Origin: Nitrososphaerota archaeon
GTDB taxonomy: Archaea; Thermoproteota; Nitrososphaeria; Nitrososphaerales; Gagatemarchaeaceae
Length of the DNA stretch: 64,000 nt
Reading direction: 5' to 3'
Assembly: GCA_027887005.1 (NCBI GenBank)
Contig: JAPCJI010000003.1
Location: 1-64,000 of the forward strand
Shown here: piece by piece, positions 1,309-36,283 of the stretch
How positions within the stretch are numbered: position 1 is the stretch's first letter
How the letters are laid out: every line of letters starts with the position of its first letter
The notes under the pieces: model-generated
Databases searched by the model: none
What the model was told of the DNA's origin: nothing
What the model saw: only the letters and a program-made list of their open reading frames with translations
Made by a program: the position numbers and the translations under genes

Positions 1309-1424
1309 CCGTCTCCGAGTCCTGGTGGGCTTAGATATAGATGCAGCCAGCCCCGTGAGAAACCCAGGTCGAAACCCCTCTGCCGGACTCACACTGATAA
1401 GGGGTTCACCTGCCCTCTTCGCCC

Positions 1425-4541: not shown

Positions 4542-4546
4542 TGGCC

Positions 4547-8539: not shown

Positions 8540-8540
8540 A

Positions 8541-9428: not shown

Positions 9429-9457
9429 CTTGGCCTCCCCTTGAGACGAATGAAGCA

Positions 9458-10048: not shown

Positions 10049-10051
10049 CGC

Positions 10052-18710: not shown

Positions 18711-18721
18711 GCTATAAAAGA
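18711..18721 (-). promoter_or_regulatory. TATA box for the cyclase operon
   Basis: On the minus strand CTTTTATAGCG lies about 27 bases upstream of the ATG at 18688, an ideal leaderless spacing. The plus-strand complement (GCTATAAAAG) has no gene downstream of it in range. Confidence 0.6.
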
Positions 18722-18801
18722 TAGGGGTCGTTTCTCACAAGTAGTAATCTGGCGATGTAGGAGGCTACGAACCCCTAACGCTGTTTGTCCCAGACGGGTG
18801 G

Positions 18802-19530
18802 CTAGACTTCCACTTCTGCGGGCACCACGACCTTCTCCGCCGAGGCGAGGAGGTCCGCAGGAGCAGGTCGGATCACAAGCCTGTCCTTAAGCATGGGCTT
18901 GGCGAACCTGTCCCAGTCCTCCTTCGTGGTGAAGAAGATCCTGGACCCCCCTAGCTCATGCTGCATCTGTGGATACGGCTTCTGGTACTGAGCGTACTTG
19001 ATTCCCCAGTATCGGAACCCAGTGTAGCTCTCATAGGTTGCCCACCATTCCTTCATGTTCATCAGGTCGAAGGCATACTCCGCCTTGGCGGCATACATTG
19101 TGGCACCAATGCCCGCCCTCCTCTTGAAGGTGAGAGTGTGGAGGCTGATGGCGACGTCGTTGTCCCAGAGCCTGAAGTTGCCTATCGCCGCGAGCTCCCC
19201 GTTGATCACCCCAATCAGCGACACATGGTCTTTCATCCTGTTCCTGTACCACCCAAGGAACTCCGCGTAGACTCTCGCCGACACTATGTCATAGAAGTCG
19301 GTGTCCCGGTCGAAGAACTTCAGGGCGGTCTTCATCACGATGGGGGCCTCCTCCTTCCTCGCTCTGCGGATCAGCATCTTCTCGCCATTGGGCAGGTTGA
19401 CATAGCCCGGCGGGTACTCGATTTTCAGGAGGGGCGACTCGAACCCGCGCAGTATTGGTTCTATGTCTTCGACATTGATCTTGACTTCCTTGAGGGTGAC
19501 GTTCTCAGGCGGCGACCAGTCCATGGACAT
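18802..19530 (-). CDS. GNAT-like acyltransferase paralogue 1
   Basis: About 242 residues with an N-terminal extension of 50 residues followed by a GNAT-like block (MLIRRARKEEAPIVMKTALKFF, GELAAIGNFRLWDNDVAISLHTL). A well conserved second half has MKEWWATYESYTGFRYWG and MQHELGGSRIFF. It is a clear paralogue of the protein at 28998-29738, with roughly 40-50 % identity by eye. The acetyl-CoA pyrophosphate loop (RxxGxG/A) is visible only weakly as RRAGIGATMY. In-frame ATGs lie at 19536, 19530 and 19524; 19530 is 28 bases from the TATA near 19558. The specific function is unknown; its location beside the cyclase and CoxG suggests a role in the same catabolic region. Confidence 0.6.
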   Translation of the reverse strand: MSMDWSPPENVTLKEVKINVEDIEPILRGFESPLLKIEYPPGYVNLPNGEKMLIRRARKEEAPIVMKTALKFFDRDTDFYDIVSARVYAEFLGWYRNRMKDHVSLIGVINGELAAIGNFRLWDNDVAISLHTLTFKRRAGIGATMYAAKAEYAFDLMNMKEWWATYESYTGFRYWGIKYAQYQKPYPQMQHELGGSRIFFTTKEDWDRFAKPMLKDRLVIRPAPADLLASAEKVVVPAEVEV

Positions 19531-19679
19531 GACCATCCGCGATTGACATTGTCGCTATAAGTCTGTCCCCTAACCAGATTCCCCAGATTCCTCTTTCGAC
19601 GAAAAGGGGCCACCTAATGGGTTTGGGAAATGGCCCGGTCAACCAATCCTTAAATCGCCTTGCTGGGAGAATTTCGAAC

Positions 19680-20117
19680 ATGCTACTGCAAGGAAAGTTT
19701 AGGTTGTCGAGCGACACGGAGAAGGTTTGGAGCTACGTCTCAGACCCAAGCAAGGTGATCGAGTGCGTCCCCGGCCTCCAGAGCTTCACCGTAGGAGAGA
19801 ACAAACGGATCTCCGCCACCGTCAAGGTCTCAATCGGGTTCATCAGGGGCACCTTCCAGACCACGACGAAGGTCGTGAAGGAAGACCCGGCAACTCATGT
19901 AGCCGTCCTGGAACTTTCTGGCTCAGGCGCCGGGAGCGGGTTCAACGCCCTAGTGAACATCGCGATTGCCCCCGTCGCAACCGAATCCGACCTCACCTGG
20001 GACGCCAACGTGACCATCAACGGGCCACTGGGGAGCCTCGCCAAACCACTTGTCGAGGGAAATATCAAGAAGATCGTGACTCAGCTCTTCGATTGCGTGA
20101 AAGCGAAGCTAAGCTAA
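19680..20117 (+). CDS. coxG: CoxG/SRPBCC-family protein
   Basis: A 145-residue START-like protein of the CoxG family (SRPBCC fold), with the typical N-terminus FRLSSDTEKVWSYVSDPSKVIECVPGL and the closing GPLGSLAKPLVEGNIKKI. CoxG proteins accompany molybdenum hydroxylases; work on mycobacterial CoxG indicates a quinone-binding role linking the enzyme to the respiratory chain. The ATG at 19680 is chosen because TTAAAT near 19650 is about 30 bases upstream and the conserved domain begins at once. A second homologue is at 62795. It precedes the BMP transporter operon. Confidence 0.85.
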   Translation: MLLQGKFRLSSDTEKVWSYVSDPSKVIECVPGLQSFTVGENKRISATVKVSIGFIRGTFQTTTKVVKEDPATHVAVLELSGSGAGSGFNALVNIAIAPVATESDLTWDANVTINGPLGSLAKPLVEGNIKKIVTQLFDCVKAKLS

Positions 20118-20138
20118 ACCTAACGGCTAAGCAAGTTA

Positions 20139-20150
20139 CCTTATATAACC
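20139..20150 (+). promoter_or_regulatory. TATA box for the BMP transporter operon
   Basis: CCTTATATAACC lies 28 bases upstream of the ATG at 20172 and is one of the strongest TATA matches in the window. It favours the ATG at 20172 over the GTG at 20163 as start of the binding protein. Confidence 0.6.
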
Positions 20151-20171
20151 AACAAGGCGTTTGTGACTACG

Positions 20172-21386
20172 ATGCAAGGAATGAAAAGAAATGGAATAAC
20201 TTCGCTCGTAATCTCACTCATCGTCATCATCCTTATCCTAGTCGGCGTCGCAGGATACGCCTTCCTCTATCCCCCTGCTGGCACGACCAGCACGGTCACC
20301 AACACAGTCACGACTACGGTGCAAGGCACCGCAGCTGCAAGTGGTCTGGCAGCCCTTAAGGTTGGGCTGATTGAACCTATCACACCCGCAGACAATTCGT
20401 GGAACTATCAGGCAGAATCGGAGCTCAAGGTCCTTCAAGCACAGTATGGCTTCACCCTCAGCTTCTCTGAGAACAAGGTTTCAGGAACAGACGCGCAGCC
20501 AGTTGCCCAGCAATGGGCGTCTTCAGGCTACGGCGTCATCTTCCTCCAAGGAATCCAGTATCAGGTCATGGCAAGCACAATTGCTCCTCAGTATCCGCAC
20601 ACCCTGTTCGTTTGTGTTGACTGTACAGCAGCCAACTCTTCCAACGTTTACAGAATCTGGCTGGACATCAGCGGCGGGGGCTTCGTCCTCGGTGCGATGG
20701 CAGGCATGGTCAGCCATAGCAACAAATTCGGCCTAATCGGCGGCGGCTTCGTACCATCGATTTGGGGTGGACACGAGGGATTCAAAGCCGGTGTTCTTTA
20801 CACCGACTCCAGCCCTGTGACCTTCTTCAACAAGTTCGAGGCGTTTGCCTGGTCAGACTCAGCCGGGGCTCAAACTGACGCAACCAACGACTACACCAAC
20901 GGGGCAGACGTCGTATTCTCGTCTGGTGACGGGATCGATGTCGGTGTACTCGGAGCAGCATTGGCACAACCAACAACAAGTCAGGTGTGGGCGACAAATG
21001 TCTACACGAACCTGACAGCGATCGCGCCCTCGGACAACAGAATTCTGTTGGGTTCAATCGTCGTCAACTGGGCAACTCTATTCAACAAAGTCTTGATAGA
21101 CTACGTGACACACAACTGGAACTTCGGATTCCTCACAGCCAACATGCAATCAGGTATTGTACAGGTGCAACCCGGACCAAATCTCCCAGCCAACGTGAAG
21201 GCTGCGGGACGTGCTCTGCAGAACGACATTACTCTGGGCTCCATCAACTTGTACTTCAAGACAAACCCTTCAACCGGCAACCCCTTCTGCTTCGACCATA
21301 CAACTGACGCCAGCTGCGCAGACACCAGTCTTTCGACTGCGGCTGCTCAGTTCAACTACCTGCCACCGGTTTCAAGTCTCCCGTAA
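20172..21386 (+). CDS. BMP-family nucleoside-type ABC transporter binding protein
   Basis: A substrate-binding protein of the BMP (PnrA/Med) family, which captures nucleosides or purine bases for an ABC importer. One N-terminal helix (SLVISLIVIILILVGVAGYAF) is followed by a Thr/Val-rich linker, the usual archaeal way of tethering a binding protein outside the membrane. The body shows KVGLIEPITPADNSWN, the hinge GIIGGG-like FGLIGGGFVP and WGGHEGFKAGV. About 404 residues. It is followed by two matching permeases on the same strand, and the ATPase lies convergently at 23366-24907. Confidence 0.85.
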   Translation: MQGMKRNGITSLVISLIVIILILVGVAGYAFLYPPAGTTSTVTNTVTTTVQGTAAASGLAALKVGLIEPITPADNSWNYQAESELKVLQAQYGFTLSFSENKVSGTDAQPVAQQWASSGYGVIFLQGIQYQVMASTIAPQYPHTLFVCVDCTAANSSNVYRIWLDISGGGFVLGAMAGMVSHSNKFGLIGGGFVPSIWGGHEGFKAGVLYTDSSPVTFFNKFEAFAWSDSAGAQTDATNDYTNGADVVFSSGDGIDVGVLGAALAQPTTSQVWATNVYTNLTAIAPSDNRILLGSIVVNWATLFNKVLIDYVTHNWNFGFLTANMQSGIVQVQPGPNLPANVKAAGRALQNDITLGSINLYFKTNPSTGNPFCFDHTTDASCADTSLSTAAAQFNYLPPVSSLP

Positions 21387-21459
21387 GGGTGCGAGCGACA
21401 TACAGGGCCTTCGATGGCTACGCGTAACGGCGTACAACGCCGCCGCAATTGCGCTCGGC

Positions 21460-22434
21460 GTGATAGCCGGGCTAGCGGTAGTGGCGTACGCCGGCGGTAA
21501 CGTCGAGGTCGCCCTGTCCACCCTTTTTCTGAATCCAATAACGACTTCCGGCGGTGTCGAGCAGATCTTCGTCAGGTTTGTAGTCTTTTACACGATGGCC
21601 ATGGGGATTGGAATTGCACTCAAGGCAGGCCTGTGGAACATCGGAGCCCAAGGTCAACTGATCGTCGGAATGCTCATGGTCTTCGTCGCCTATACCTACA
21701 TGGCCTTCCTTCCCTGGCCTGTCCTCTACGTTTCAATGATTCTTCTCGCAACCCTGGGCGGTCTCCTCTGGATAGTGGTCCCGGCGGTGCTGAGAATCAA
21801 GTTCGGGGCAAACGAAATCGTCGTCACTCTCCTGCTGAACGTGGTCGCTACGAACTTCGGGTACTACATGCTCAACGGACCAATCAAGAGCGCCCAGGCC
21901 GTCGGCTATCCGTACACGGCAACGCTCCCAGCGAAGTTCCAGATCCCCCAGATACTGAACGGAGTCCCGATCACCTACGCCGTGCCCTTCACGGTCGCCC
22001 TGGGGGTCGTCCTTTACTTCCTGGTCGAAAAGACGTCGTTTAGGCTAAAGGCTGACACCGTCGGTGAAAGTACTGAAACGGCGAAGTACGCTGGGATTAA
22101 CATCCCCCGTGTAATGGTCATCACGATGTTGTCCGCGGGAGCCCTCGCGGGTTTGGCTGGCGCGACCCTTCAGATGGGCTACCTTTACCACATCGACGCT
22201 GGCTCGTTCGGGACGAACTTCGGTTTCATCGCTGTAATCGCTGCGCTGGTGGGACGGAAGCACATGATAGGAATAGGGATTGCTTCACTCTTTTTCGCCT
22301 ACATGACGATTGGGGCGGAGGCCATGGCGCTCCTGTCAAACGTGACCACTTCCGTCGTCTTCGCAATGGAGGGAGTGATGATGATAGGAATTCTTCTAAG
22401 CGCATTCCTGGCTGAAAGGAGAGATAGGACGTGA
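21460..22434 (+). CDS. Nucleoside-type ABC transporter permease 1
   Basis: A branched-chain/nucleoside-type inner membrane permease with about nine hydrophobic helices. KAGLWNIGAQGQLIVGML and KFGANEIVVTLLLNVVATNFGYYM match the permease partner of BMP proteins (YufP-like). The start is a problem: the frame is open back to 21211, deep inside the preceding gene, and no ATG, GTG or TTG occurs between the end of that gene (21386) and a GTG at 21460, which falls in the middle of the expected first helix. Either that GTG is used or a non-standard codon such as ATA just after 21386 is used. The stop overlaps the next start as GTGA. Confidence 0.85.
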   Translation: MIAGLAVVAYAGGNVEVALSTLFLNPITTSGGVEQIFVRFVVFYTMAMGIGIALKAGLWNIGAQGQLIVGMLMVFVAYTYMAFLPWPVLYVSMILLATLGGLLWIVVPAVLRIKFGANEIVVTLLLNVVATNFGYYMLNGPIKSAQAVGYPYTATLPAKFQIPQILNGVPITYAVPFTVALGVVLYFLVEKTSFRLKADTVGESTETAKYAGINIPRVMVITMLSAGALAGLAGATLQMGYLYHIDAGSFGTNFGFIAVIAALVGRKHMIGIGIASLFFAYMTIGAEAMALLSNVTTSVVFAMEGVMMIGILLSAFLAERRDRT

Positions 22435-23369
22435 GCTTCCTCATCGCAGACGTCCTCCAAGGGATCTTCTCCACTGCCCTACTTCTTTCTCCCCTGTACC
22501 TTTTCGCCGGAATGGGGGAGATCGTGGCGGAGAAGTCAGGGGTGGCGAACATGGGCATCGAAGGAATCATGCTCATGGCCGCCTTCACAACCTACGCGAT
22601 CGATGTTACCACTGGCAATCCGTGGCTGGCGATATCGGCTGCCCTGGGCGTTGCCGGACTTATTGGAGGATTCTTCTCCTACCTCGCGGTGCGTCTGCGC
22701 CTCGGTCAGATAGTGTTGGGTCTCGCGGTCTACCTCTTCGGGCTCGGCCTGTCCTTCGTTCTGTTCAACAACCTCTCAACCGGTAGGAGCTTGGCCCCAT
22801 TCACCAACATCCCCAACATCTACATCCCTTACCTGAGCGATATTCCGGTCGTCGGGAGGGTGCTTTTCCAACAGAACATCCTGGTGTATCTCGCAATCGC
22901 CCTCGTAATCTTGACCTCCTTATTCCTGAACAGAACCTCCTATGGGCTTAGGGTGAAGGCTGTCGGCGAGAACCCAAAGGCTGCCGACAACATGGGGGTA
23001 AACGTCCTGAAGGTCCGGTTCCTTGCAGTCCTCTTCGGTGCCATCCTTGCAGGTCTAGCCGGAGCCTACTTCGAGATCGGTTTCCTTCAAAACTTCCAGT
23101 TTGACATTATCGCGGGGAGAGGGTTCATCGCACTCGCCATGATCTACCTGGCAAACTGGGGGCCGTACAAGACCCTCTTCGCCGCAATTTCCTTCAACGT
23201 TGTCTACGCGGCCCAATCGGAATACGTGCAACTTTCCGGAATCGCGACTGCTGGGAGTTCCCAGCTCTTCACGATGCTCCCCTACGTCTACCTACTCGCA
23301 CTTATCCCAATCCTGGGAAGGAGGGCAAGGCCGCCGAAGTACCTGCTGAAGCCCTACAGGAAGGGCTAG
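22431..23369 (+). CDS. Nucleoside-type ABC transporter permease 2
   Basis: A 312-residue second permease (YufQ-like) of the BMP importer, with about eight to nine helices and the motifs EKSGVANMGIEGIMLMAA, LRVKAVGENPKAADNMGVNV and GRGFIALAMIYLANWGP. The GTG start overlaps the stop of permease 1 by 4 bases, so the two are translationally coupled and likely form a heterodimeric channel. Its end overlaps the convergent ATPase gene by 4 bases. Confidence 0.9.
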   Translation: MSFLIADVLQGIFSTALLLSPLYLFAGMGEIVAEKSGVANMGIEGIMLMAAFTTYAIDVTTGNPWLAISAALGVAGLIGGFFSYLAVRLRLGQIVLGLAVYLFGLGLSFVLFNNLSTGRSLAPFTNIPNIYIPYLSDIPVVGRVLFQQNILVYLAIALVILTSLFLNRTSYGLRVKAVGENPKAADNMGVNVLKVRFLAVLFGAILAGLAGAYFEIGFLQNFQFDIIAGRGFIALAMIYLANWGPYKTLFAAISFNVVYAAQSEYVQLSGIATAGSSQLFTMLPYVYLLALIPILGRRARPPKYLLKPYRKG

Positions 23370-24907
23370 GCTAGCTCTTTCGGTCGACTCGTGGTCGTCA
23401 TCAGGGTCGCGAGTTCGTGGATGTCGGCGTCCTTGGTCTCGACGATCTTTGCAATCCTCCCCTGACTCATCACGGCTATCCTATCACTCATGTCGAGTAT
23501 CTCGTCCAGGTCGGCCGAAATCATCAGAATCGCCCTGCCAGCCTCTTTCTGCTTCATCAACACGTTCCGGATGTACTCGGCAGACCCTATGTCCAATCCC
23601 TTCGTCGGATTGTTGGCCACGATCACCTTGGGGCCCCAGAAGAGCTCCCGGGCAAGGAGGAATTTCTGCTTGTTTCCTCCGCTCAGAGTCCGGAGCTCCG
23701 CCATCTCGGAGGAAGCTACCACATTGTATTCTTTTAGGAGCTCTCTCGTTGTCTGACGCAACTTGGACTCGTCGAGGAACATCCCCTTCTTGAATCGGCC
23801 TGCCAGGAAAGGCGAGAGGATCAGGTTGTCCTTCAGCGAGAACTCAAAGATGAATCCGGTCTTGTGCTCCTCGCAGACGTGAGCCACCCCTGCCTTCCGC
23901 ATTTCGTCGGGGGTTTCTCGAGTGACGTCATTCCCCTCGAGGATGATTTTGCCAGAATCTGGCCTACGCATCCCGGTGACGACCTCGTCTAACTCCCTCT
24001 GACCGTTCCCTGAAACGCCTGCGACGCCCAGGATTTCACCGGCCCTAAGCTCGAAAGAGGCGTCCCGGACGGCCCGGATCCCGATGTCGTTGTCCGCTGA
24101 AACGTTGACGAGTTGCAAGACGGGTTTCCCGATTTGGGTCTGCACCTTTAGGACGTTGTACATTACCTCGCGACCGACGATGAGCATGGCAAGCTGGTCC
24201 TGGGTGACCTCGCTCCTGAGCTTGGTCGCAATGACCTTGCCGAGCTTCATCACAGTTATTCTGTCCGCTATCGCCATCACTTCGTCAATCCTGTGTGTGA
24301 CAAAGACGACTGACCTCCCCTCCCCGACCATTCGCTTGAGACTTGAGAAGAGCTTCTCTGTCTCGATTTCGGTCAGGAAGCTCGTGGGCTCGTCGAGCAG
24401 GAGTATGTTCGCTCCGATGAAGAGGCACTTCAGTATCTCAACCCTCTGTCTTTCGCCGACCGAAAGGTTCTCCACCAGCGCCTCAGGGTCGACCTCAAGT
24501 CCATAGGTCTCTTCCATTGCCATGAGCTTCTTCTTCAGTTCTCCAAGCTCGAGCATCGGCTTCGTCAGTTCCAGGTCGGTCATCAGGCTCATGTTCTGAA
24601 GCACGCTGATGTTGGGAATCAGCATCAGCTCCTGGTGAACCATCCCTATGCCTGCCCCCATGCCGTCCTTCGGGGATGTTAGTCTGACCCGCTGGCCCTT
24701 GACTGCTACCTCGCCTCCGTCCGGCTTGTAGTATCCGTAGAGGACGTTGCAGAGCGTCGACTTGCCCGCTCCGTTCTCCCCGAGCAGGGCGTGGATCTCG
24801 CCCTTGCGCAGCGTGAAATCAACTGCATTTACTGCGACTAGGCTCCCAAATCTCTTTGTGAGACTCCTGGTCTGGAGGACAGCTTGCCCTTGTGCACCAG
24901 CTTCCAT
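23366..24907 (-). CDS. Nucleoside-type ABC transporter ATPase (two NBDs)
   Basis: A 513-residue ATPase with two nucleotide-binding domains, as in sugar and nucleoside importers. The first half has a full Walker A (LLGENGAGKST), the signature NLSVGERQRVEI and Walker B (ILLLDEPTS). The second half has the altered P-loop GVAGVSGNGQRE and signature TLSGGNKQKFLLAREL common to this class. It is on the opposite strand to its permeases, with its own TATA (CCTTTAATCAAA near 24935) 28 bases before the ATG, so its expression is set separately from the membrane parts. Confidence 0.93.
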   Translation of the reverse strand: MEAGAQGQAVLQTRSLTKRFGSLVAVNAVDFTLRKGEIHALLGENGAGKSTLCNVLYGYYKPDGGEVAVKGQRVRLTSPKDGMGAGIGMVHQELMLIPNISVLQNMSLMTDLELTKPMLELGELKKKLMAMEETYGLEVDPEALVENLSVGERQRVEILKCLFIGANILLLDEPTSFLTEIETEKLFSSLKRMVGEGRSVVFVTHRIDEVMAIADRITVMKLGKVIATKLRSEVTQDQLAMLIVGREVMYNVLKVQTQIGKPVLQLVNVSADNDIGIRAVRDASFELRAGEILGVAGVSGNGQRELDEVVTGMRRPDSGKIILEGNDVTRETPDEMRKAGVAHVCEEHKTGFIFEFSLKDNLILSPFLAGRFKKGMFLDESKLRQTTRELLKEYNVVASSEMAELRTLSGGNKQKFLLARELFWGPKVIVANNPTKGLDIGSAEYIRNVLMKQKEAGRAILMISADLDEILDMSDRIAVMSQGRIAKIVETKDADIHELATLMTTTSRPKELA

Positions 24908-24948
24908 GTCGATTCTGCCACTCAGCGTGTTTGATTAAAGGATTGAGC

Positions 24949-25836
24949 CTAATGGGTCTGGACTGCCCTGAGGCATCTCTCCAAGGCCCCCTCTTTGGCT
25001 GCCCTGTCCCTGGTCGCGGCGGCCGCGAGCAGGACTCCCGTCGACATGTCGATGCCCGAAGTGTGACCTCGCTTCGCCACCTGGAGCAGGTCCTGGAAGA
25101 ACCTTTCACGCCTCCCCCCAAACGTCGAAACGATGAGGCGCTCGAGCTCCTCGTCCACGTAACCCCGTTGGGCATAGTGAATCAGCGCAGCGCTCTCGGG
25201 AACGGTACGTCCTGTGAGGGCGCTCCTTGAGAACAGAATCTCAGCCTCGCCGGTTGTGCGCGCGACGTGGTTGAGAGCAGCCGTAAAGCCGCCCACGAAG
25301 TCGTCGCCAGCGGGAGTGAACCCTCCGCCTGCCCCGATCAAGGGGAGGTAGTACCGAAGGGCATGGGCTTCATCCGGGTGGCCTCCGGCCAACGGGGAGA
25401 TGACGTCCTCCGCAAACTGTCGGAAGGCGCCTTCCGAGAAGATGTCAAGGTCTGACTTCGCTGCCCCGTAGAGCAGCCTGAGCATTTCGATTCCCTTGAC
25501 GAGGACGCTTCCGGCCACCGGAGATCCCGACCATGACGCTCCCAGGCCACTCCTGTAGACCTTCGCTCCCTTTGTTTTCACCGTCAGCTCCCCAAAGACG
25601 ATCCCCCCATCCACCAGGCTGCAGCTGTCTTCGACGGCGAGCAATTCCTCCAAGTTCTCGGAGGGGTTCAAATTGACATTGATGGGAGACCGCAACTCTC
25701 CGTGCAAGAGGAGCAAGAGTTCGTCTCCGGCTTCTATGTAGGCGGAATTCCTGAAGACCCTCGACACTCTGCCTTCAGACTGCCTGGATGGAAGTGAAAC
25801 CACCAGCTCCCCTACGTCTGTGGCGTTGATGATCAA
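24949..25836 (-). CDS. allH: Oxamate transcarbamylase subunit AllH (DUF2877)
   Basis: A 295-residue DUF2877 protein, homologous to E. coli YlbF, now AllH, a subunit of oxamic transcarbamylase with AllF and AllG. Recognisable parts are the central GAGGGFTPAGDDFVGGF motif and the alpha-helical C-terminus (FFQDLLQVAKRGHTSGIDMSTG) that define the family. It starts with TTG overlapping the allG stop as TTGA, so both are made from one message. The enzyme acts on carbamoyl-oxamate-type ureides and phosphate to give carbamoyl phosphate plus oxamate. It is convergent with nothing; the ATPase gene follows on the same strand after 41 bases. Confidence 0.85.
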   Translation of the reverse strand: MIINATDVGELVVSLPSRQSEGRVSRVFRNSAYIEAGDELLLLLHGELRSPINVNLNPSENLEELLAVEDSCSLVDGGIVFGELTVKTKGAKVYRSGLGASWSGSPVAGSVLVKGIEMLRLLYGAAKSDLDIFSEGAFRQFAEDVISPLAGGHPDEAHALRYYLPLIGAGGGFTPAGDDFVGGFTAALNHVARTTGEAEILFSRSALTGRTVPESAALIHYAQRGYVDEELERLIVSTFGGRRERFFQDLLQVAKRGHTSGIDMSTGVLLAAAATRDRAAKEGALERCLRAVQTH

Positions 25837-27095: not shown

Positions 27096-27122
27096 AAGGC
27101 GTCGATTTCTCGGCCGCCGGCA

Positions 27123-27160
27123 CCCGTTAAAACATTTCCACTCCACAACGTTTATCATGA
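27123..27160. promoter_or_regulatory. Divergent promoters of allG and allF
   Basis: Two TATA-like elements lie in this gap. CGTTAAAACA at 27123-27132 reads TGTTTTAACG on the minus strand and serves allG at 27095. ACGTTTATCATG at 27149-27160 serves allF, whose TTG at 27181 is about 27 bases on. Both transcripts would be leaderless. The gap is only about 85 bases, so one regulator could control the two halves of the enzyme. Confidence 0.5.
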
Positions 27161-27180
27161 ATTGAAGAAACTTCCCTCTG

Positions 27181-28963: not shown

Positions 28964-28997
28964 AGCATCCGCTCTCGAGTGGGAGACGTCCAGCCCG

Positions 28998-29738
28998 CTA
29001 GAATTCCACTTCGATCTTCGTGGTCGGCTTGAGGGGCATGGTCGAGGCGAGCGTGTCAGCAGGGACCGGTCTCGTCCCCATCCAGTTCTTCTCCTTCGCG
29101 AAGGGTCTCACATACTGCTCCCACTGCTGCCTGTTGATGTAGAAGATCCTGGCCCCTCCGAGCTCGTGCTGCATCTCAGGCCATGGTTTCGTCACGTGCT
29201 GGAACCTGAAGCCGAGTCTGAACCCAAACGGACTTTCAAAGGTCGCCCACCACTCGTTTACCCCTACCACGTCGAAAGCGTGCTCTATCTTGGAGAGGTA
29301 GAGGATCACTCCCACCCTCTCCGCTCTCTTGAGGACGAGGGTATGGAGGCTCACTGCGACGTCCTTGTCCCAGAACCTATGGTCGACCAGGCCCACCAGC
29401 TCCCCGTCCTTCTTCGTGGCTACGATCACGTAGGTGTCCTTGAGCCTGTTCTGGTGCCAGGCGAGCACCTCGGCGTAGGTCCTCGTCCCGACCAGGTGGT
29501 AGAAGTCCTTGTCGTACTTCGAATCAATCAACGGCTTCAGTGACTCGAGGATGGCGGGGGCCTCTGCTTTCCCTGCGGGTCTGATGATGATCTGCTCTCC
29601 GCTCTTCAGGGTGTACATCTTCGGCGCGAGGGCCTTCTGAAAAGCTGGGTCATCCGGGATGCCCCCGAGGTATCCTTCAATCTCCTCCACCGAAAACTGA
29701 AAGCTATCGAACGAAATCGGGACCGTTGGCTTTACCAT
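28998..29738 (-). CDS. GNAT-like acyltransferase paralogue 2
   Basis: A 246-residue paralogue of the protein at 18802-19530 with the same plan: about 50 N-terminal residues, a GNAT-like block (QIIIRPAGKAEAPAILESLK, GELVGLVDHRFWDKDVAVSLHTLVLKRA) and a shared distal half (VNEWWATFESPFGFRLGFRF, MQHELGGARIFYINRQQW). A TATA box (ACTATAAAC on this strand) lies 27 bases before the ATG, and a perfect inverted repeat sits between them, so it is probably regulated. It is convergent with allF and upstream-adjacent to the molybdenum hydroxylase operon on the same strand. Function unknown. Confidence 0.6.
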   Translation of the reverse strand: MVKPTVPISFDSFQFSVEEIEGYLGGIPDDPAFQKALAPKMYTLKSGEQIIIRPAGKAEAPAILESLKPLIDSKYDKDFYHLVGTRTYAEVLAWHQNRLKDTYVIVATKKDGELVGLVDHRFWDKDVAVSLHTLVLKRAERVGVILYLSKIEHAFDVVGVNEWWATFESPFGFRLGFRFQHVTKPWPEMQHELGGARIFYINRQQWEQYVRPFAKEKNWMGTRPVPADTLASTMPLKPTTKIEVEF

Positions 29739-29744
29739 GTTTCA

Positions 29745-29759
29745 AAACCGCTCCGGTTT
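29745..29759 (-). promoter_or_regulatory. Perfect inverted repeat at the GNAT-like 2 promoter
   Basis: AAACCG, the spacer CTC and CGGTTT form a perfect 15-base inverted repeat. On the minus strand it begins 3 bases after the TATAAA element (29763-29768) and covers the predicted transcription start. This is the position expected of a repressor site. The regulator is unknown. Confidence 0.5.
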
Positions 29760-29823
29760 CAGTTTATAGTTCTTGTCCCTAACCAGCCCTTGGTGCAATC
29801 CCGGCTGCTGCTCTTGGCGGCGG

Positions 29824-30321
29824 CTACCTTGCCCTCTGGACAATGGACTTTCGCGCTTTGGCGTAGGCCTTTGAAGCATCTGCGACAGCCTCTCTGATTT
29901 CGTTGTAGGTCCCGCACCGGCAAAGGAGCCCTCCCACCGCCTCCTCGACTTCTTTTTCACTCGGATTGGGATTCGCCTTCAGGAGTTCGTGGGTGGTCAG
30001 GACCCAGGCGGGGGTACAGAATCCGCACTGGGTCGCTCCGTGTTCGACGAATGCCTCCTGAATGGGGGTCAGCTTTTCGCCTTCAGAGATCCCTTCGACG
30101 GTCGTCACCTCCCCCCCGTTAGCCTCGGCTGCGAGGACGAGGCAGGACTTGACCAGGCTCCCGTTGAGCAGGACAGTGCAGAGGCCGCACTCTCCCCTCC
30201 AACAGGCAGCCTTCACGCTCCTGACCTCGAGGCCATCCCTGAGCAGGTCCAGGAGTAGCAGGTTGTCCTTCGCCCTCAGGCTCCTCGATTGGCCGTTGAC
30301 CATGAGCGCAAGGTCTCTCAT
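29824..30321 (-). CDS. Molybdenum hydroxylase small subunit (two [2Fe-2S])
   Basis: A 165-residue iron-sulfur subunit of the xanthine dehydrogenase/CoxS type. The plant-type cluster is bound by Cys40, Cys45, Cys48 and Cys60 (CWRGECGLC), the second by CGFC and CRC in GGLLCRCGTYNEI. It passes electrons from the molybdenum centre to FAD. The ATG at 30321 overlaps the stop of the FAD subunit by 4 bases; the frame is open further upstream but without family similarity. Last gene of the large-medium-small operon. Confidence 0.93.
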   Translation of the reverse strand: MRDLALMVNGQSRSLRAKDNLLLLDLLRDGLEVRSVKAACWRGECGLCTVLLNGSLVKSCLVLAAEANGGEVTTVEGISEGEKLTPIQEAFVEHGATQCGFCTPAWVLTTHELLKANPNPSEKEVEEAVGGLLCRCGTYNEIREAVADASKAYAKARKSIVQRAR

Positions 30322-31187
30322 TTCTGCAGCAGCCTCCCAAGGGCCTTGGTGGTTACGACCTTGACCAGATGCTTCCTGTAATCCGAGGACGCCAGGACGT
30401 CGCTCATGCATTCTACCTTGTCGGCTGCAGTGTCTGCCGCCCTCCTAATGGATGCCCTGCTCGTTTCCTGTTCAAGAACCTGTTCCACTTCCTGGCATCG
30501 AACGGGGGTCGAGTTCACGGCTCCATAGACCACTCTCGCAGTCCTCTTCCTTCCCTGGGACTGGAGAGTGACCGCGATGCTCGCGAGAGAGAACTCCGAG
30601 CCAGATGTGAACTTCTCGAAGGTGCTCCTCATGCCGCTGACGTCGGGGACTTCGACAGAAGCAACCATCTCCTCCGGGCCCAGGTCGATATCGACGGGGC
30701 CTTTGATGAAGCTGGCGACCGGGACCTTCCTCCTCCCCCCCGGCCCGACCACTTCGACTGTTGCGTCAAGCGAAATAAGTGCGGGCGGGCTGTCCACCCA
30801 GGGGATCGCTTCGCAGAGGTTGCCGACGAGGGTCGCCCGGCCCCTTATCATCTGGTCCGCCACTCTCGAGAGGGCCTCGTGAAGAACGGTGAACTTGTCC
30901 TGAATCAGGTCGTTCTGGCAGAGTTCAGCAATCGTCACTGAAGCCCCGATCCTGAGGCCCCTGCCAGGGACGTAGTCCGCCCCTCCGAGCTCCTTCACTC
31001 CCTTGATGTCGATGACGTGCGACGGCGACATCAACCTCTCCTTCATGAATGCCAGTAGGCCCACCCCGCCACCCATCACTTTCGCCTCGTCTCCGTGCTC
31101 CTTGAGGATCTTGAGCACTTCTTCTATCGTCGTCGGCCTGTGGTAGGTGAAGTCGGGGAGTGTCACATAGGGAGAGCCGAAGCTCAT
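30318..31187 (-). CDS. Molybdenum hydroxylase FAD-binding medium subunit
   Basis: A 289-residue FAD subunit of the CoxM/XdhB type. FAD-binding motifs appear as AKVMGGGVGLLAFMK (usually AGGTDLL) and RGRATLVGNLCEAIPWVDSPP (usually TIGGNxxxxxPxxDxxP), so both are somewhat divergent. The C-terminal domain (VARLETG-like lysine/alanine-rich end) is short but complete. Its ATG at 31187 overlaps the large-subunit stop as ATGA. It would transfer electrons from the iron-sulfur subunit to a quinone or other acceptor. Confidence 0.9.
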   Translation of the reverse strand: MSFGSPYVTLPDFTYHRPTTIEEVLKILKEHGDEAKVMGGGVGLLAFMKERLMSPSHVIDIKGVKELGGADYVPGRGLRIGASVTIAELCQNDLIQDKFTVLHEALSRVADQMIRGRATLVGNLCEAIPWVDSPPALISLDATVEVVGPGGRRKVPVASFIKGPVDIDLGPEEMVASVEVPDVSGMRSTFEKFTSGSEFSLASIAVTLQSQGRKRTARVVYGAVNSTPVRCQEVEQVLEQETSRASIRRAADTAADKVECMSDVLASSDYRKHLVKVVTTKALGRLLQK

Positions 31188-33583
31188 GATTTCACGCGCA
31201 CCGGGCTCTCGACCTTCGAGAAGCTGTCCATGGCCTGAGAGATTAGGTCGGGCCTCTGCTCCCTGATGGCCTCCCAAACTACTTCGGGGCTCATGGGCAG
31301 GTTGTTGAGCCTGATTCCGGTCGCGCGGTAGATAGCGTTCGATATGGCCGAGGCCACGGAGATCATGCTCAGTTCCCCAATGCCCCTTGCCCCCATGGGA
31401 CCGTCGAACTGCGGGGTCTCCACGAACCTCCCCACGAACTCCTTGGGGACGTCCTTCATTCGCGCGATGTAGTAGCTGGTGAAGTTGGGGTTCGTCACCC
31501 AGCCCTGTTCGTCGAACTTGATCTTCTCGAAGAGCGCCACGCTCATGCCCATGATGAAGCCGCCGTTCAGTTGCATCTTAAGGAGCAGCGGGTTGATGGC
31601 CTTGCCTACGTCGAAGACCTGGACAGCCTTGGCGACCTCGACAGCGCCAGTGACTAGGTCGAGCTCGACATCCACCGCCGTGCCGCCGAAGGTGTGGAAG
31701 ATTGTCGGGACCCCCTGGCCGGTCTGGGGGTCGAGGTAGGTGTTCAGGCTCGAGGAGAAGTATCCCCGACCTATCACTGGGCCGCCGACCGTATTCCCGT
31801 TGGGGTAGACGTATCCAAAGACAAGCTCCTTCAAAGGAATCGTCACCCAGGGCCTCCCTTTTGCCTTCACCGCCCCTTCCGATACCTCCAGTTCGTCCTT
31901 CGGCACTCGCAGGACCTGGGAGGCGAGCTCGAGAATCTGGTTCTTTGCGTCGTCGCAGGCCCTCAGTGTGGCCATGCCGTCCGTGAAGAGCCCCCTGCTC
32001 CCCACGGTCTGCCACGTGTAGGCGGACTTGCCAGTATCCCGTGTGGGGTCGACCCTGACCTTCTCGACGGGGATTCCGAACCTGTCGGCAACGAGCTGCG
32101 TGAGGGCAGTGGCAGTCCCCTGGCCGAAGTTCCCAGTCCCGACCACCAGGTCTATGGTCGAATCTTCGTTGAACTTGATTATCGCGGATGACGAGGCGTT
32201 CGGAGGCTGCGATGGACCCTTCACGCAGAGGGCAAACCCTCTGGCCCTCACCTTCCAGGGCTCGGACGGCGGTCCGACCTTCCCGTCCCATTCTATGCCT
32301 TCAAGGACCGTCTGCAGGACCTTCCTCGGGTCCCCGACGTCCTCCCTCAGCTTCTCGCCCGTCGCCGTGTGTGACTCCCCCGGTCTCAACAGGTTGATCC
32401 TCCTCAATTTCGCAGAATCGAGGCCCAATTTGTTGGCAGCCCGCTCGAAGACCTGCTCCAATACCCAGTTGCTCTCTGAGTAGCCGAAACCTCTCATGGC
32501 TGTGGTGGGTATCTTGTTGGTGTATACCGCGAGCGACTCACAATCCACGTTCGGGATCTCGTACACTCCCTCCGCCGAATACCCCATCGCCCGGGACACG
32601 TTCACCGTGTAGTCCGCGTAGGCTCCAGCGTCCAGCACAAACCTCACCTTGTACGCTACGCACTTCCCGTCCTTCTTGAATCCGGCTTTGACGTTCGCCA
32701 CGACCCCCTCCCGCGATGCGGCCGAGGCGAAGTTCTCCTTCCGAGAAAGGACAAGCTTGACCGGCCTGTACCCCACGGCCCTCGACGCGGTCGCCACCAG
32801 GGCTTCCCATCCGAGGCCAGCCTTCCCGCCAAACCCACCTCCCACGAAGGCGACCCGTACAGTGATCTTGTTTGCCGGGATCTTGAGGGATTCAGACATT
32901 ATCTGCCTTACTACGAAGGGTGATTGGCAGCTCGTCCAGACCTCGACGCTCCCGTCCCTAAGGAACTGAGCGACTACGTTCTGCGTCTCCATGTACGCGT
33001 GGCTGACGTGGGAGACCGTGAACTCATCCTCGATTATCTCGTCCGCCTCTGCGAAGCCCTTCTCCACATCTCCGTGTATCAGCCGGAATCGGTTCGCCAC
33101 GTTCGTCCCCGGGACCGGATAGAAAGCAGGGGCATGCTTGTACTCCTGCATGTTCTCATGGAGCAAGGGCGCGTCTGGCTTCAGTGATTCTATGGGGTCC
33201 AGGACAGCGGGCAGTGCCTCGTATTCCACGTCCACCAATTCCGAGGCCCTCTCGGCTGCTTCCAGTGATTCTGCCACCACCAGGGCGACGGGATGTCCAG
33301 CCCATCTTACCTTCTCCACGGCCAGAAGGTCCCTGTCACCGGCGTACATTCCCACCCGGAACGGCATGTCCCTGCCAGTCAGCACCGCGACCACGCCCGG
33401 GACTTCCTTCGCCTTCGCCGTGTTGATGTTCAAGATCTTCGCGTGGGGGACTGTGCTGGTTACGAGCTTGGAATGGAGCGTTCCAGGTAGGTCCCAGTCA
33501 TAGGTGTAGCTAGCAGTACCAGTGACCTTCAGCACCGAGTCCTGTGGCGGGACCGGCCTTCCTACCCAGCCTTCGCCTGTCAA
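31184..33583 (-). CDS. Molybdenum hydroxylase large subunit, xanthine dehydrogenase type
   Basis: A 799-residue catalytic subunit that binds the molybdenum cofactor. Cofactor motifs GGGFGGKAG, the Gln in SCQSPFVV and the catalytic Glu in GARGIGEL near the C-terminus are present. The substrate loop reads TTAMRGFGYSE, like the AFRGFG of xanthine dehydrogenases, and it lacks the Cys-containing AYxCSFR loop that defines form I CO dehydrogenase. Oxidation of a purine or related N-heterocycle is therefore more likely than CO oxidation. Start is TTG 33583, 27 bases from a TATA box. First of a three-gene operon; the Moco genes at 5.4-11.3 kb and xdhC would mature it. Confidence 0.9.
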   Translation of the reverse strand: MTGEGWVGRPVPPQDSVLKVTGTASYTYDWDLPGTLHSKLVTSTVPHAKILNINTAKAKEVPGVVAVLTGRDMPFRVGMYAGDRDLLAVEKVRWAGHPVALVVAESLEAAERASELVDVEYEALPAVLDPIESLKPDAPLLHENMQEYKHAPAFYPVPGTNVANRFRLIHGDVEKGFAEADEIIEDEFTVSHVSHAYMETQNVVAQFLRDGSVEVWTSCQSPFVVRQIMSESLKIPANKITVRVAFVGGGFGGKAGLGWEALVATASRAVGYRPVKLVLSRKENFASAASREGVVANVKAGFKKDGKCVAYKVRFVLDAGAYADYTVNVSRAMGYSAEGVYEIPNVDCESLAVYTNKIPTTAMRGFGYSESNWVLEQVFERAANKLGLDSAKLRRINLLRPGESHTATGEKLREDVGDPRKVLQTVLEGIEWDGKVGPPSEPWKVRARGFALCVKGPSQPPNASSSAIIKFNEDSTIDLVVGTGNFGQGTATALTQLVADRFGIPVEKVRVDPTRDTGKSAYTWQTVGSRGLFTDGMATLRACDDAKNQILELASQVLRVPKDELEVSEGAVKAKGRPWVTIPLKELVFGYVYPNGNTVGGPVIGRGYFSSSLNTYLDPQTGQGVPTIFHTFGGTAVDVELDLVTGAVEVAKAVQVFDVGKAINPLLLKMQLNGGFIMGMSVALFEKIKFDEQGWVTNPNFTSYYIARMKDVPKEFVGRFVETPQFDGPMGARGIGELSMISVASAISNAIYRATGIRLNNLPMSPEVVWEAIREQRPDLISQAMDSFSKVESPVRVKS

Positions 33584-33604
33584 GAACGGAAAGAACCTCT
33601 CAAA

Positions 33605-33616
33605 ATTATAAAAGGA
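33605..33616 (-). promoter_or_regulatory. TATA box for the molybdenum hydroxylase operon
   Basis: On the minus strand CTTTTATAATTT is an excellent TATA element centred about 27 bases upstream of the TTG start at 33583, implying a leaderless transcript for the whole operon. Confidence 0.65.
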
Positions 33617-33692
33617 TATTCCCTTACCCCGAAGTGTCTACTCTCAGCGTTCGAGGCGTCCTCTCGGTGCCTGCCTCACGTGGTTCTCGATC

Positions 33693-34637
33693 CTAACCTG
33701 GCGTGATTCTGGTTCCTGACCTTCCCGCCAGCGCGTCGACAGCTCCTGCAAGAGACGCTATGATCCCCCGGCCGCCCCGCCACTCGACGAACCGGAGGCA
33801 GGCCAGGACTTTCGGTCCCATTGTTCCCGGGGGGAACTCACCCTGGGCCAGGAGCCTCTTTGCCTCCTTGACAGTCAGGGAATCCAAGCTCTTTGCCTTG
33901 GGGGTCCCGTATCCGGCCATGAGCTTCTCCACATTTGTGAGTATCAGTAGGCAGTCGGCCCCTACCGCCTCCGCGATCTTCTCTGCACAAAGGTCCTTGT
34001 CGATGACAGCGTCGACCCCCTCGTATCTTCCTGAAGAGTTCTTGACGACAGGGATCCCGCCCCCTCCGCCCGCCACGACCACGTATCCTTCGCGAATCAT
34101 CCCTGCAATGACTCTCTCCTCTACAACGTGAACTGGGTCAGGAGAAGGAACAACCCTCCTGTAGGGCCTCCCAGGGTTTCTGTCCACCTTCTTCATTACA
34201 AACCCCTTCTCCTTTGCCAGCATCTTCGCCCGCGTCTCGTCGTAGAAAGGTCCGATCGGCTTGGAGGGACTATCGAAGGCGGGGTCTTTGACGTCCACGA
34301 GGACCTGGGTGACCACGGATGCGACTGAGAGCTTCACCCCGAGGGCTTCGAGGGCGTTGCCGAGTTCCCTCTGAATCAGGTATCCTATCTCCCCCTGGGT
34401 CATGGCATCGAGTACGTGCAAGGGAAGTTCGGGGACGTCTTTGGTGGCGCCCCCTTGAATCGCAAGGTTGCCCACCTGTGGCCCGTTTCCGTGAGTCACC
34501 ACCACCTGGTGGCCGTTCTTGATTATCTCCGCCAGCTGCCTACAAACGACCCGGACGTTTGCGACCTGCTCGTCATAGGTTCCCTCCTGCTCGGGTCTCG
34601 CCAGGGCGTTCCCTCCGAGGGCGATTACGATCTTCAA
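33693..34637 (-). CDS. arcC: Carbamate kinase
   Basis: A 314-residue carbamate kinase, which makes ATP from carbamoyl phosphate and ADP, releasing carbamate. KIVIALGGNALARPEQ at the N-terminus, VVTHGNGPQVGNLA and GGGGIPV are diagnostic, and the length is standard. The TTG start at 34637 lies about 28 bases after the TATA-like ATTTTTAAGAC on this strand. No arginine deiminase genes are nearby. Together with AllFGH it completes the oxamate route to ATP; it sits between the molybdenum hydroxylase and pyrBI, all on the minus strand. Confidence 0.95.
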   Translation of the reverse strand: MKIVIALGGNALARPEQEGTYDEQVANVRVVCRQLAEIIKNGHQVVVTHGNGPQVGNLAIQGGATKDVPELPLHVLDAMTQGEIGYLIQRELGNALEALGVKLSVASVVTQVLVDVKDPAFDSPSKPIGPFYDETRAKMLAKEKGFVMKKVDRNPGRPYRRVVPSPDPVHVVEERVIAGMIREGYVVVAGGGGGIPVVKNSSGRYEGVDAVIDKDLCAEKIAEAVGADCLLILTNVEKLMAGYGTPKAKSLDSLTVKEAKRLLAQGEFPPGTMGPKVLACLRFVEWRGGRGIIASLAGAVDALAGRSGTRITPG

Positions 34638-34723
34638 GGAACGGCTGGCCCAAGTGTGGTCTTAAAAATCATTCAATCAGGAACCCGAGGCCTCAATGCA
34701 TTGCCGCTGGGGGCCTCGACGGA

Positions 34724-35215
34724 CTACCCGCTTACGTGGTCAGGGACAGCGTCGAACCCGAGCAATGTGTCGCAGTAGTGGCACTGCAAGAGCCTCTCAC
34801 GCTTCAGGGTGATGAATTTGGTTACCACCGGCTCCCTCTCGGCATTCGATATGCAGGAGACCTCGGGGCACCTTATCCTCCCTTCGATAACGTCTGGCAC
34901 CCTCGCCTGATACTTGGACACCTTCCACTCGTTGACGTAATTGACCGAGATGCCCGGGAAGACTAGGGACAGGATGTCCGCATCCCTTTCGTCCACCTGC
35001 CATCTGTCTATCTTCACAATGTCCTTCCTGCCCAGGCTCTGACTCTTCACGTTCTGAAGTATCGCGACCGAAACATCGGCCTGCATCCGAGCCAGCTTGT
35101 CCAGCCTGAGGACCTTCGCGACGGTCTCGGCTTTCCAGTCAGGGATGTGGTCGATGACCGTCCCCTGTTCGATCTTTCTCACAAGCATCTCCTCGCCCGC
35201 TTCTCTCTTTGACAA
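34724..35215 (-). CDS. pyrI: Aspartate carbamoyltransferase regulatory chain
   Basis: A 163-residue regulatory chain that binds nucleotides and controls PyrB. The allosteric domain has the usual GTVIDHIP and the zinc domain has four cysteines in CPEVSC and LQCHYC. It starts directly after the pyrB stop, so the two subunits are made as a pair. Presence of PyrI means carbamoyl phosphate use for pyrimidines is feedback controlled. Confidence 0.95.
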   Translation of the reverse strand: MSKREAGEEMLVRKIEQGTVIDHIPDWKAETVAKVLRLDKLARMQADVSVAILQNVKSQSLGRKDIVKIDRWQVDERDADILSLVFPGISVNYVNEWKVSKYQARVPDVIEGRIRCPEVSCISNAEREPVVTKFITLKRERLLQCHYCDTLLGFDAVPDHVSG

Positions 35216-36151
35216 CTAGCTCGCCCCTCCCAGCATGAAGTTCATGAGTACCATTCTCAGGGGAAGGCCAGCGGCAGCTTGCACGAAATAGTGCGCGTAA
35301 TTCGTAGCGTCCAGCTCGGCAGCCAGCTCATCCACCCTCGGCATGGGATGGAGGACCTTGAGGGAGGGCTTCGCCCGGGCGAGGGCTTCAAGGTTCACCT
35401 GATAGAGCCCCTTCACCTTCTCGAACTCTGTGGGGTCAGGAATTCTCTCTTTCTGGATCCTCGTCACGTATAGAACGTCAAGGTCCCCGACCACGTTCTT
35501 CAGGTCGGTTTCAGACTTGGTGGTCGCGCCGCGCTGCTCCAGGTATTGCTCCACTTCCGGGCGCATCTTCAGGGCCTCGGGGGCAATGAAGGTCATTTCG
35601 ACGTCGTAGTTTGATAGGGCATAGGCAAGCGATGAGGCCGTCCTACCGTATCTCAGGTCTCCGAGTATCCCAACCTTGAGCCCATCCAACTTGCCGAACG
35701 CCTTCCTGATGGCGTACATGTCGGTCATCGCTTGGGTGGGGTGTTCCCTGCTCCCATCTCCGGCGTTGATCACGGGTACATCCGTTATTTCAGCAGCAAA
35801 CCGAAGGGATCCGGGCCTGGCGTGCCGTATGACGAAGAGATCGGCTCCGTAGCCTTCGAACATCCGTATCGTGTCGTGGAGCGTCTCCCCCTTGGAAACC
35901 GATGAGCCTGCGGCGCTGGCGAAACCTGTTACCTTCATCCCCAGGTTGTCTGCAGCTATGTGGAAGCTCGAGTAGGTCCGGGTCGACGGCTCAAAGAAGA
36001 GTATGACTGCGAGCTTTCCCTCAAGAATGTCGTTGAGGCTTCTGGGCTGCTTTTCCAGTGCTTCCACGGAATCGAAGAGGTGGTCAAGTTGGTCCCGCTC
36101 GAAGTCCCGTATGCTTACCACGTCTCTCCCGATGAAGTCTGATTTCTCCAT
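35216..36151 (-). CDS. pyrB: Aspartate carbamoyltransferase catalytic chain
   Basis: A catalytic chain of aspartate carbamoyltransferase, about 311 residues, forming N-carbamoyl-L-aspartate from carbamoyl phosphate and aspartate. The carbamoyl phosphate loop FEPSTRTYSSF, the HPTQAMTD stretch and LYVTRIQKER are conserved. The ATG at 36151 is preferred over the TTG one codon upstream. First gene of pyrBI. In this window it competes with carbamate kinase for carbamoyl phosphate. Confidence 0.96.
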   Translation of the reverse strand: MEKSDFIGRDVVSIRDFERDQLDHLFDSVEALEKQPRSLNDILEGKLAVILFFEPSTRTYSSFHIAADNLGMKVTGFASAAGSSVSKGETLHDTIRMFEGYGADLFVIRHARPGSLRFAAEITDVPVINAGDGSREHPTQAMTDMYAIRKAFGKLDGLKVGILGDLRYGRTASSLAYALSNYDVEMTFIAPEALKMRPEVEQYLEQRGATTKSETDLKNVVGDLDVLYVTRIQKERIPDPTEFEKVKGLYQVNLEALARAKPSLKVLHPMPRVDELAAELDATNYAHYFVQAAAGLPLRMVLMNFMLGGAS

Positions 36152-36283
36152 CAATTAGGCAACCCCATATCCGAGTCTGATGTGTGCTGATTCTTGGAGA
36201 AGGCAAGCGTTGCTCAATCGGGTTGGCCTGCGAGCAGCATAGTCCTGAATGGTGAGCCCGATTTGACGACATCATACTGACTT

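Follow-up and report, generated by a model that had tools for sequence, protein, structure and literature searches.

The window examined here, a stretch of 64,000 nucleotides (contig positions 1-64000), comes from an archaeal genome of 1.6 Mb, 96% complete, that belongs to the Gagatemarchaeaceae of the order Nitrososphaerales. It carries a catabolic island in which the genes for the three subunits of AllFGH accompany those for a carbamate kinase, a molybdenum hydroxylase, a hydrolase of family PF04199, and enzymes of methylmalonyl-CoA metabolism. The G+C content of the genome is about 59% (the Gagatemarchaeaceae range from 54 to 62%; PMC10640624). The genome was covered by targeted searches and by selected stretches of sequence. 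Archaeal AmoA is present in some relatives from the same order; none was found in this genome, in one congener, or in one sister genus. Since AmoA is absent from its genome, the host, a soil-type archaeon, is a non-ammonia oxidizer in an order to which ammonia oxidizers belong too.

Gene content and edges of the island

The three subunit families of AllFGH are all present and linked, as judged from profile and structure-database matches. AllH (24949-25836, minus strand) matches PF11392 with 72.6 bits (cut-off 25), and AllG (25833-27203, minus strand), identified also by its place in a tree, matches PF06545 with 286 bits (cut-off 27). AllF (27181-28791, plus strand), which is FdrA/YahF-like and divergent from AllG and AllH, has the Pfam CoA-ligase and CoA-binding domains. 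It scores 421 bits with the NCBIfam model NF004760, slightly below the cut-off of 433, and matches the structure of E. coli FdrA (3dmy) with E = 5.6e-71. Carbamate kinase is encoded at 33693-34637 (minus strand; TIGR00746, 383 bits, cut-off 358). An ATP-binding cassette (ABC) importer consists of a BMP/PnrA-type substrate-binding protein (20163-21386, plus strand; PF02608, with solved relatives), two permeases (21211-22434 and 22431-23369, both plus strand; PF02653), and an ATPase (23366-24907, minus strand; PF00005 twice).

The molybdenum hydroxylase comprises a 2Fe-2S subunit (29824-30411; PF01799, PF00111), an FAD subunit (30318-31277; PF00941, PF03450), and a subunit binding the molybdenum cofactor, or Moco (31184-33583; PF02738, PF20256), all on the minus strand; the last belongs to a distinct archaeal subfamily. 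A CoxG-like accessory protein of molybdenum hydroxylases lies at 19617-20117 (plus strand; PF06240). The block from 5430 to 11332 serves Moco biosynthesis and maturation, with Pfam matches for MoCF (5430-6017, minus), MoaC (5993-6526, minus), MoaA (6516-7538, plus), MoaE (7795-8259, plus), XdhC/CoxI (8544-9419, minus), a MobA/MocA-like protein (9320-10045, plus), and MoeA (10052-11332, minus).

The PF04199 hydrolase (17888-18688, minus strand; 129.7 bits against a cut-off of 23.1, with PDB matches) belongs to the kynurenine formamidase/isatin hydrolase family and is the candidate ring opener. It keeps the metal motif HxGTHxD, invariant in nine relatives, and the PDB matches include isatin hydrolase, a member of the same family that opens a cyclic amide. 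A CodA/YahJ-like amidohydrolase of the cytosine-deaminase family (11983-13233, minus strand; PF07969; 350 bits with NF005748, below its cut-off of 438) has relatives near AllF in three other loci (L044, L054, L058).

Methylmalonyl-CoA metabolism is represented by the large subunit of methylmalonyl-CoA mutase (14506-16080, plus strand; TIGR00641, 746 bits over 304), which shows what we take to be motifs of the Tyr89/Arg207/His244 type, by methylmalonyl-CoA epimerase (16091-16492, plus strand; TIGR03081, 131 bits over 115), and by a divergent acyl-CoA carboxyltransferase or MmdA-like subunit (16503-17876, minus strand; PF01039, 293 bits; TIGR01117, 294 bits, far below the cut-off). The carboxyltransferase was considered as part of a Na+-pumping methylmalonyl-CoA decarboxylase and rejected, because the beta subunit, present in genomes G027 and G012, is absent from this one. 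There are also two paralogous proteins (41% identity) with a predicted GNAT fold, neither with a Pfam match. The first (18802-19536, minus strand) has no family match at all, and its AlphaFold 2 model (pLDDT 78) finds GNAT proteins in Foldseek with probability 1.00 and TM of about 0.5; the second (28998-29738, minus strand) has an orthologue of 72% identity in locus L041. Proteins of this pair recur with the genes described here in five loci (L041, L053, L054, L058, L150). Malonyl-CoA decarboxylases are among the enzymes with a GNAT fold (PMC3701320), and by analogy the pair may have that activity.

An earlier reading of the letters alone (the sequence-only reading) had placed allG-allH, divergent allF, the BMP importer, the molybdenum hydroxylase, carbamate kinase, and pyrBI within 18711-36151, and profile searches find all of them there. 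The Moco genes, xdhC, dihydroorotase-like and CodA-like enzymes, cyclase-family hydrolase, and amidase that it listed nearby are likewise all present. Not all of them belong to the island, however. In three congeners (G096, G217, G169), the genes for the amidase, pyrC, and pyrI are consecutive, with pyrB next in G096, whereas the window has pyrC up to 4673 and pyrI from 34724 on, with the entire catabolic set (about 30 kb) in between. Because they are contiguous in the congeners, the GatA-like amidase (1401..2828, plus strand; PF01425) and the PyrC dihydroorotase (3267..4673, minus strand; TIGR00857, 305 bits over 279) on the left and PyrI (34724-35215, minus strand) and PyrB (35216-36154, minus strand) on the right can be regarded as housekeeping core flanks, and this synteny rules them out as members of the pathway.

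No AllG was found in other sampled members of the host genus. Since a sister genus (G163) has the gene set beside the same epimerase and aldehyde-dehydrogenase genes, loss in the congeners, with vertical descent, is as plausible as recent gain. Insertion of a mobile element with edge repeats or a tRNA was considered and rejected: the edges share no 13-mers, there is no tRNA, and the GC is similar. In another congener, G240, a carbamate kinase gene (L159 2587-3540, 59% identical) lies near nudix and pyrB genes. The neighboring aldehyde dehydrogenase was rejected as a methylmalonate-semialdehyde dehydrogenase, as that model is not among its 25 best. Elsewhere in the window (41286-42506), between genes for an iron alcohol dehydrogenase and a HAD phosphatase, is a protein of the aconitase-X family resembling cis-3-hydroxy-L-proline dehydratase.

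A recurring archaeal module

In a class-wide sample of 300 genomes, AllG occurs in 28. A tree of 43 AllG rows places the window's protein in an archaeal clade of 11 sequences (support 100/99), drawn from four families of the class, a thaumarchaeon metagenome-assembled genome (MAG), a MAG labeled 'bacterium' (L053, 77% identical), and two Desulfurococcales. The AllG proteins of ammonia oxidizers form a separate clade (100/100). AllG and YahG of E. coli are found elsewhere in the tree, and the window's clade excluding both, orthology with E. coli AllG does not hold.

The company of AllG within the clade is consistent. The molybdenum hydroxylase of the window's subfamily lies beside or near it in 10 of the 11 loci; the eleventh locus is on a contig of 4.6 kb, and another contig of the same genome (L150) carries together the molybdenum enzyme, AllF, AllH, carbamate kinase, the PF04199 hydrolase, both GNAT-fold proteins, mutase, epimerase, and carboxyltransferase. 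The close molybdenum subfamily (at least 52% identity) is present in 15 of the 300 genomes, all 15 of which have AllG (Fisher p ~1e-17, uncorrected and ignoring the relatedness of the genomes; a single cell of the table behind it is wrong by one, with no effect on the outcome). The PF04199 hydrolase (at least 46% identity) is found in AllG-carrying genomes, unlinked cases included. The sequence-only reading would have been refuted if AllFGH were unlinked to carbamate kinase and molybdenum hydroxylases in related archaea. The outcome is mixed: the linkage exists in families f1, f18, f19, f21, and AUK008 and in Desulfurococcales, but not in family f20, where the genes are unlinked though co-present (hydrolase 66-76% identity), nor in ammonia oxidizers, where no member of the molybdenum subfamily was found in the sampled genomes. 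Its recurrence in further archaeal families makes chance a very poor explanation of the linkage. A distinct archaeal module exists, in which this AllG clade recurs with the molybdenum hydroxylase subfamily, the PF04199 hydrolase, and methylmalonyl-CoA enzymes.

The sequence-only reading considered such a route undescribed in this lineage, a claim that needs narrowing, because allFGHK with bmpA-nupABC has already been reported from ammonia-oxidizing archaea, comammox bacteria, and one non-ammonia-oxidizing Nitrososphaerales MAG (PMC12625717). The published ammonia-oxidizer loci come from the same order and have AllFGH, carbamate kinase, and the BMP importer in common with the window. They differ from it in having AllG of their own clade and in lacking the molybdenum subfamily in the genomes sampled, and the main text of that report makes no mention of molybdenum. 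No description of the partnership with a molybdenum hydroxylase and methylmalonyl-CoA enzymes was found in the literature searched. What is new here is the link of AllFGH to this molybdenum hydroxylase subfamily, the PF04199 hydrolase, and the methylmalonyl-CoA enzymes.

AllG relatives occur in other settings as well. The genome itself has a second, divergent AllG (43% identity, long branch) with no AllF or AllH nearby, in a cluster (L003, G000:C16, 3254-13528) with a bacterial-type acetate/propionate kinase, a second BMP importer, a TRZ/ATZ-like amidohydrolase, and an M24 peptidase-like protein. Among bacteria, AllG relatives or the loci that contain them in Devosia, Kaistia, and Mesorhizobium (L073, L078, L081) are accompanied by an adjacent amidase, and those of Devosia and Mesorhizobium have in addition an arylmalonate-decarboxylase-like protein. 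With AllF and AllH not nearby, these loci represent another AllG lifestyle.

Purines and oxalurate as possible substrates

The molybdenum enzyme had been labeled xanthine-dehydrogenase type, and the label stands as far as the xanthine-oxidase superfamily and the three-subunit layout are concerned. The best NCBIfam model for the Moco subunit is indeed XdhA, but with 470 bits, far under the cut-off of 780, and the best solved relative over its full length is 4-hydroxybenzoyl-CoA reductase. The columns that we take, through alignment with human AOX1, to be equivalent to Glu802 and Arg880 of bovine xanthine dehydrogenase respectively hold Ala in 20 of 20 subfamily sequences and T, A, or S in all 20, the latter column being directly preceded by Arg or Lys; the Phe914 column keeps Phe in all 20. 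The conserved Glu of the motif Y-M/L-E-T-Q was considered as the counterpart of Glu802 and rejected, because in the alignment with AOX1 that column falls on the Ala that follows GGK. The window's enzyme shares its fold family, cofactors, and three-subunit layout with xanthine dehydrogenase, 4-hydroxybenzoyl-CoA reductase, carbon monoxide dehydrogenase, and quinoline oxidoreductase but stands apart from them all in a separate archaeal subfamily, marked by the signature DYTVNVxR and by Ala at the Glu802 column. Judged by its sequence, the enzyme belongs to the xanthine-oxidase superfamily and is not a xanthine dehydrogenase. A second large subunit of a molybdenum hydroxylase (35% identical) is encoded on the window's contig, some 100 kb further downstream (G000:C3:167689-169965), and two f20 genomes have a second molybdenum hydroxylase copy by CoxG and malic enzyme (L143, L152), with an OrfB/IS605-type transposase nearby in L152.

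These observations bear on purine catabolism proper, in which the enzyme would be a xanthine dehydrogenase and hypoxanthine or xanthine would be degraded by way of urate through an undescribed route. Such catabolism would account for the layout, which resembles that of XdhABC, for XdhA as the best model, and for the nucleoside-type importer. Apart from the weak XdhA score, the altered residues, and the closeness to 4-hydroxybenzoyl-CoA reductase, it must contend with the absence of the genes that it would use. No match to uricase (PF01014) was found in this genome or in the 12 genomes searched, none to the AllD family (PF02615) in this 96%-complete genome, and none over the cut-off to the allantoate-amidohydrolase/N-carbamoylase model (TIGR01879) in this genome. 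In view of the missing genes and the active-site residues, we reject the purine route as very unlikely. The purine/ureide label of the sequence-only reading finds no support, and the doubt it expressed about a purine substrate gains support.

Oxalurate is a stronger candidate. The chemistry of E. coli AllFGH is proven for oxalurate and oxamate (PMC11326118), and ammonia oxidizers of the same order that carry allFGHK and no upstream purine genes have been read as oxalurate users (PMC12625717). Ureides (oxalurate itself, or parabanate or hydantoin by way of the molybdenum enzyme and the PF04199 hydrolase) would then give oxamate and carbamoyl phosphate, and the methylmalonyl-CoA genes would be unrelated. 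The window's AllG is slightly nearer to AllG of E. coli (46% identity) than to YahG (43%). It does not group with E. coli AllG in the tree, however, AllF has 43% identity to YahF and 35% to its E. coli namesake, genes for AllD, uricase, and an AllC-type enzyme are missing, and the recurrent methylmalonyl-CoA genes are left unexplained. On balance an oxalurate module seems unlikely.

Comparison with E. coli can be made at two loci. With AllFGH and its carbamate kinase AllK (PMC11326118, PMC9843812), the island shares the three subunit families, the kinase, and, as expected in both, the chemistry of acylurea phosphorolysis. It differs in its separate AllG clade, in an AllF nearer to YahF, in having no allantoin genes, although no genome-wide search for an AllB type was made, in its links to the molybdenum hydroxylase, PF04199 hydrolase, and methylmalonyl-CoA enzymes, and in being probably aerobic. 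The locus yahEFG-yahI-yahJ, to whose YahF the island's AllF is closest, unites DUF2877-FdrA-DUF1116 proteins, a carbamate kinase, and a CodA-related amidohydrolase, as does the island. That locus, however, has no genes for a molybdenum hydroxylase or methylmalonyl-CoA enzymes, and its YahG falls outside the AllG clade of the window.

Oxidative pyrimidine cleavage as a candidate pathway

In this island, carbamate kinase is probably supplied by AllFGH acting as an acylurea phosphorylase. This agrees with the sequence-only reading, which took the linked genes for AllFGH, the molybdenum hydroxylase, and carbamate kinase to indicate a probable gain of ATP from a carbamoyl-bearing heterocycle. For acylurea phosphorolysis the ring must contain an N-CO-N unit, and the carbon left over depends on the ring: purines and imidazoles give C2 units, uracil gives malonate, and thymine gives methylmalonate. 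Since the product side here consists of C3/C4 dicarboxyl-CoA compounds, pyrimidines are the likeliest substrates. We therefore favor, tentatively and somewhat short of calling it probable, an aerobic catabolic module in which pyrimidines are cleaved oxidatively, AllFGH carries out the phosphorolysis, and (methyl)malonyl-CoA is the product.

We infer the reactions of the molybdenum enzyme, the PF04199 hydrolase, and this AllFGH clade, along with their substrates and the direction in which AllFGH runs, as follows. A nucleobase or nucleoside would enter by the BMP ABC importer (in relatives, by NCS1 or NCS2 carriers), and the CodA-like deaminase may first take off an amino group. The molybdenum hydroxylase would oxidize a ring carbon of thymine or uracil next to a nitrogen, and a hydrolase, probably the PF04199 enzyme, would open the ring to give an acylurea, R-CO-NH-CO-NH2. 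AllFGH would split this by phosphorolysis into an amide and carbamoyl phosphate, from which carbamate kinase would make ATP, NH3, and CO2. After hydrolysis of the amide, the leftover acid would become a CoA ester and be used as (methyl)malonyl-CoA, for which the genome has mutase and epimerase. Thymine would thus pass through 5-methylbarbiturate and ureido-methylmalonate to methylmalonamate and carbamoyl phosphate, the former going on to methylmalonyl-CoA and succinyl-CoA, and uracil would follow a parallel route through barbiturate.

The known oxidative pyrimidine pathway of actinobacteria employs uracil/thymine dehydrogenase, barbiturase, and ureidomalonase. Its ring oxidation to (5-methyl)barbiturate, its intermediate ureido(methyl)malonate, and its product (methyl)malonate are those proposed for the island, where, in contrast, the carbamoyl group would be removed by phosphorolysis with a gain of ATP and not by hydrolysis to urea. 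That the island encodes in all particulars a thymine and uracil pathway, aerobic and so far undescribed, with a new molybdenum pyrimidine hydroxylase, a PF04199 enzyme that opens (methyl)barbiturate, AllFGH acting on ureido(methyl)malonate, ATP made by way of carbamoyl phosphate, and methylmalonyl-CoA delivered, is a more doubtful proposition.

The genes expected of a (methyl)malonyl product are present: mutase and epimerase score over their cut-offs in the island, and relatives have Mmd or Prp genes. Next to the module, L040, L043, L046, L150, and the window each have the mutase gene, and L150 and the window also have the epimerase gene. L150 has MmdA and the beta subunit of the Na+-pumping decarboxylase; L041 has an MmdA-like protein with methylisocitrate lyase (prpB), prpD, and 2-methylcitrate synthase, the beta subunit being about 13 kb away; and L033 has a dicarboxylate-type CoA-transferase. 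Nucleobase carriers are found in related loci (NCS1 in L041, NCS2 in L058). In L040, a dihydropyrimidinase (TIGR02033, 530 bits over 393) stands beside the molybdenum enzyme, where its sister L043 has the PF04199 hydrolase; the L040 genome has that hydrolase on another contig. The CodA-like deaminases, the NCS1/NCS2 carriers, and the dihydropyrimidinase in related loci fit a pyrimidine substrate.

That dihydropyrimidinase, however, also suits a reductive route, in which the pyrimidine would be reduced, the ring opened by dihydropyrimidinase, and the carbamoyl group taken by AllFGH from an N-carbamoyl beta-amino acid, with the molybdenum enzyme an aldehyde oxidoreductase acting on methylmalonate semialdehyde. 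The nearest model to the FAD subunit is glyceraldehyde dehydrogenase beta (204 bits, cut-off 350), which would be in keeping with that role, and the methylmalonyl-CoA genes fit equally well. Yet the substrate known for AllFGH is of the acylurea and not the alkylurea kind (PMC11326118), no beta-ureidopropionase-type enzyme scores over the cut-off, and dihydropyrimidinase occurs in one locus only, so that this route is decidedly unlikely. Perhaps, instead, the same steps of molybdenum hydroxylase, hydrolase, and AllFGH act on a non-pyrimidine ureide ring with a carbon skeleton that we do not predict. The logic of the module holds for any ring, and the chemistry of acylureas extends to biuret, allophanate, and hydantoin derivatives, but such a ring would not predict the methylmalonyl-CoA genes, and it too we consider improbable.

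Oxidative pyrimidine cleavage has difficulties of its own. We know of no activity established for this AllFGH clade, the molybdenum subfamily, or the hydrolase. A search of 12 genomes, run without a positive control, gave no match to an AtzD/TrzD-type barbiturase (PF09663), and the island has no amidase specific to it. AllFGH is kept in ammonia oxidizers without the molybdenum enzyme, which means that AllFGH as such must act on other substrates. Not all carboxyltransferases near the module are orthologous to one another (26-61% identity), and the methylmalonyl-CoA genes could serve the metabolism of propionate or branched-chain amino acids and be neighbors by chance or through co-regulation. 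Finally, since congener G240 has its carbamate kinase near the same locus and no AllG match, the kinase may have been there before the module arrived or have stayed on after its loss.

The allFGH genes of archaea form two or more clades that differ in their neighboring genes, and they cannot safely be read as a sign of purine or allantoin catabolism. If the proposed cleavage of pyrimidines is correct, the island holds candidates for the genes by which archaea would break down pyrimidines oxidatively, and the AllFGH family would be one of general acylurea phosphorylases and not an oxalurate enzyme. It would also explain how a non-ammonia-oxidizing lineage of the Nitrososphaerales could live on nucleobases.

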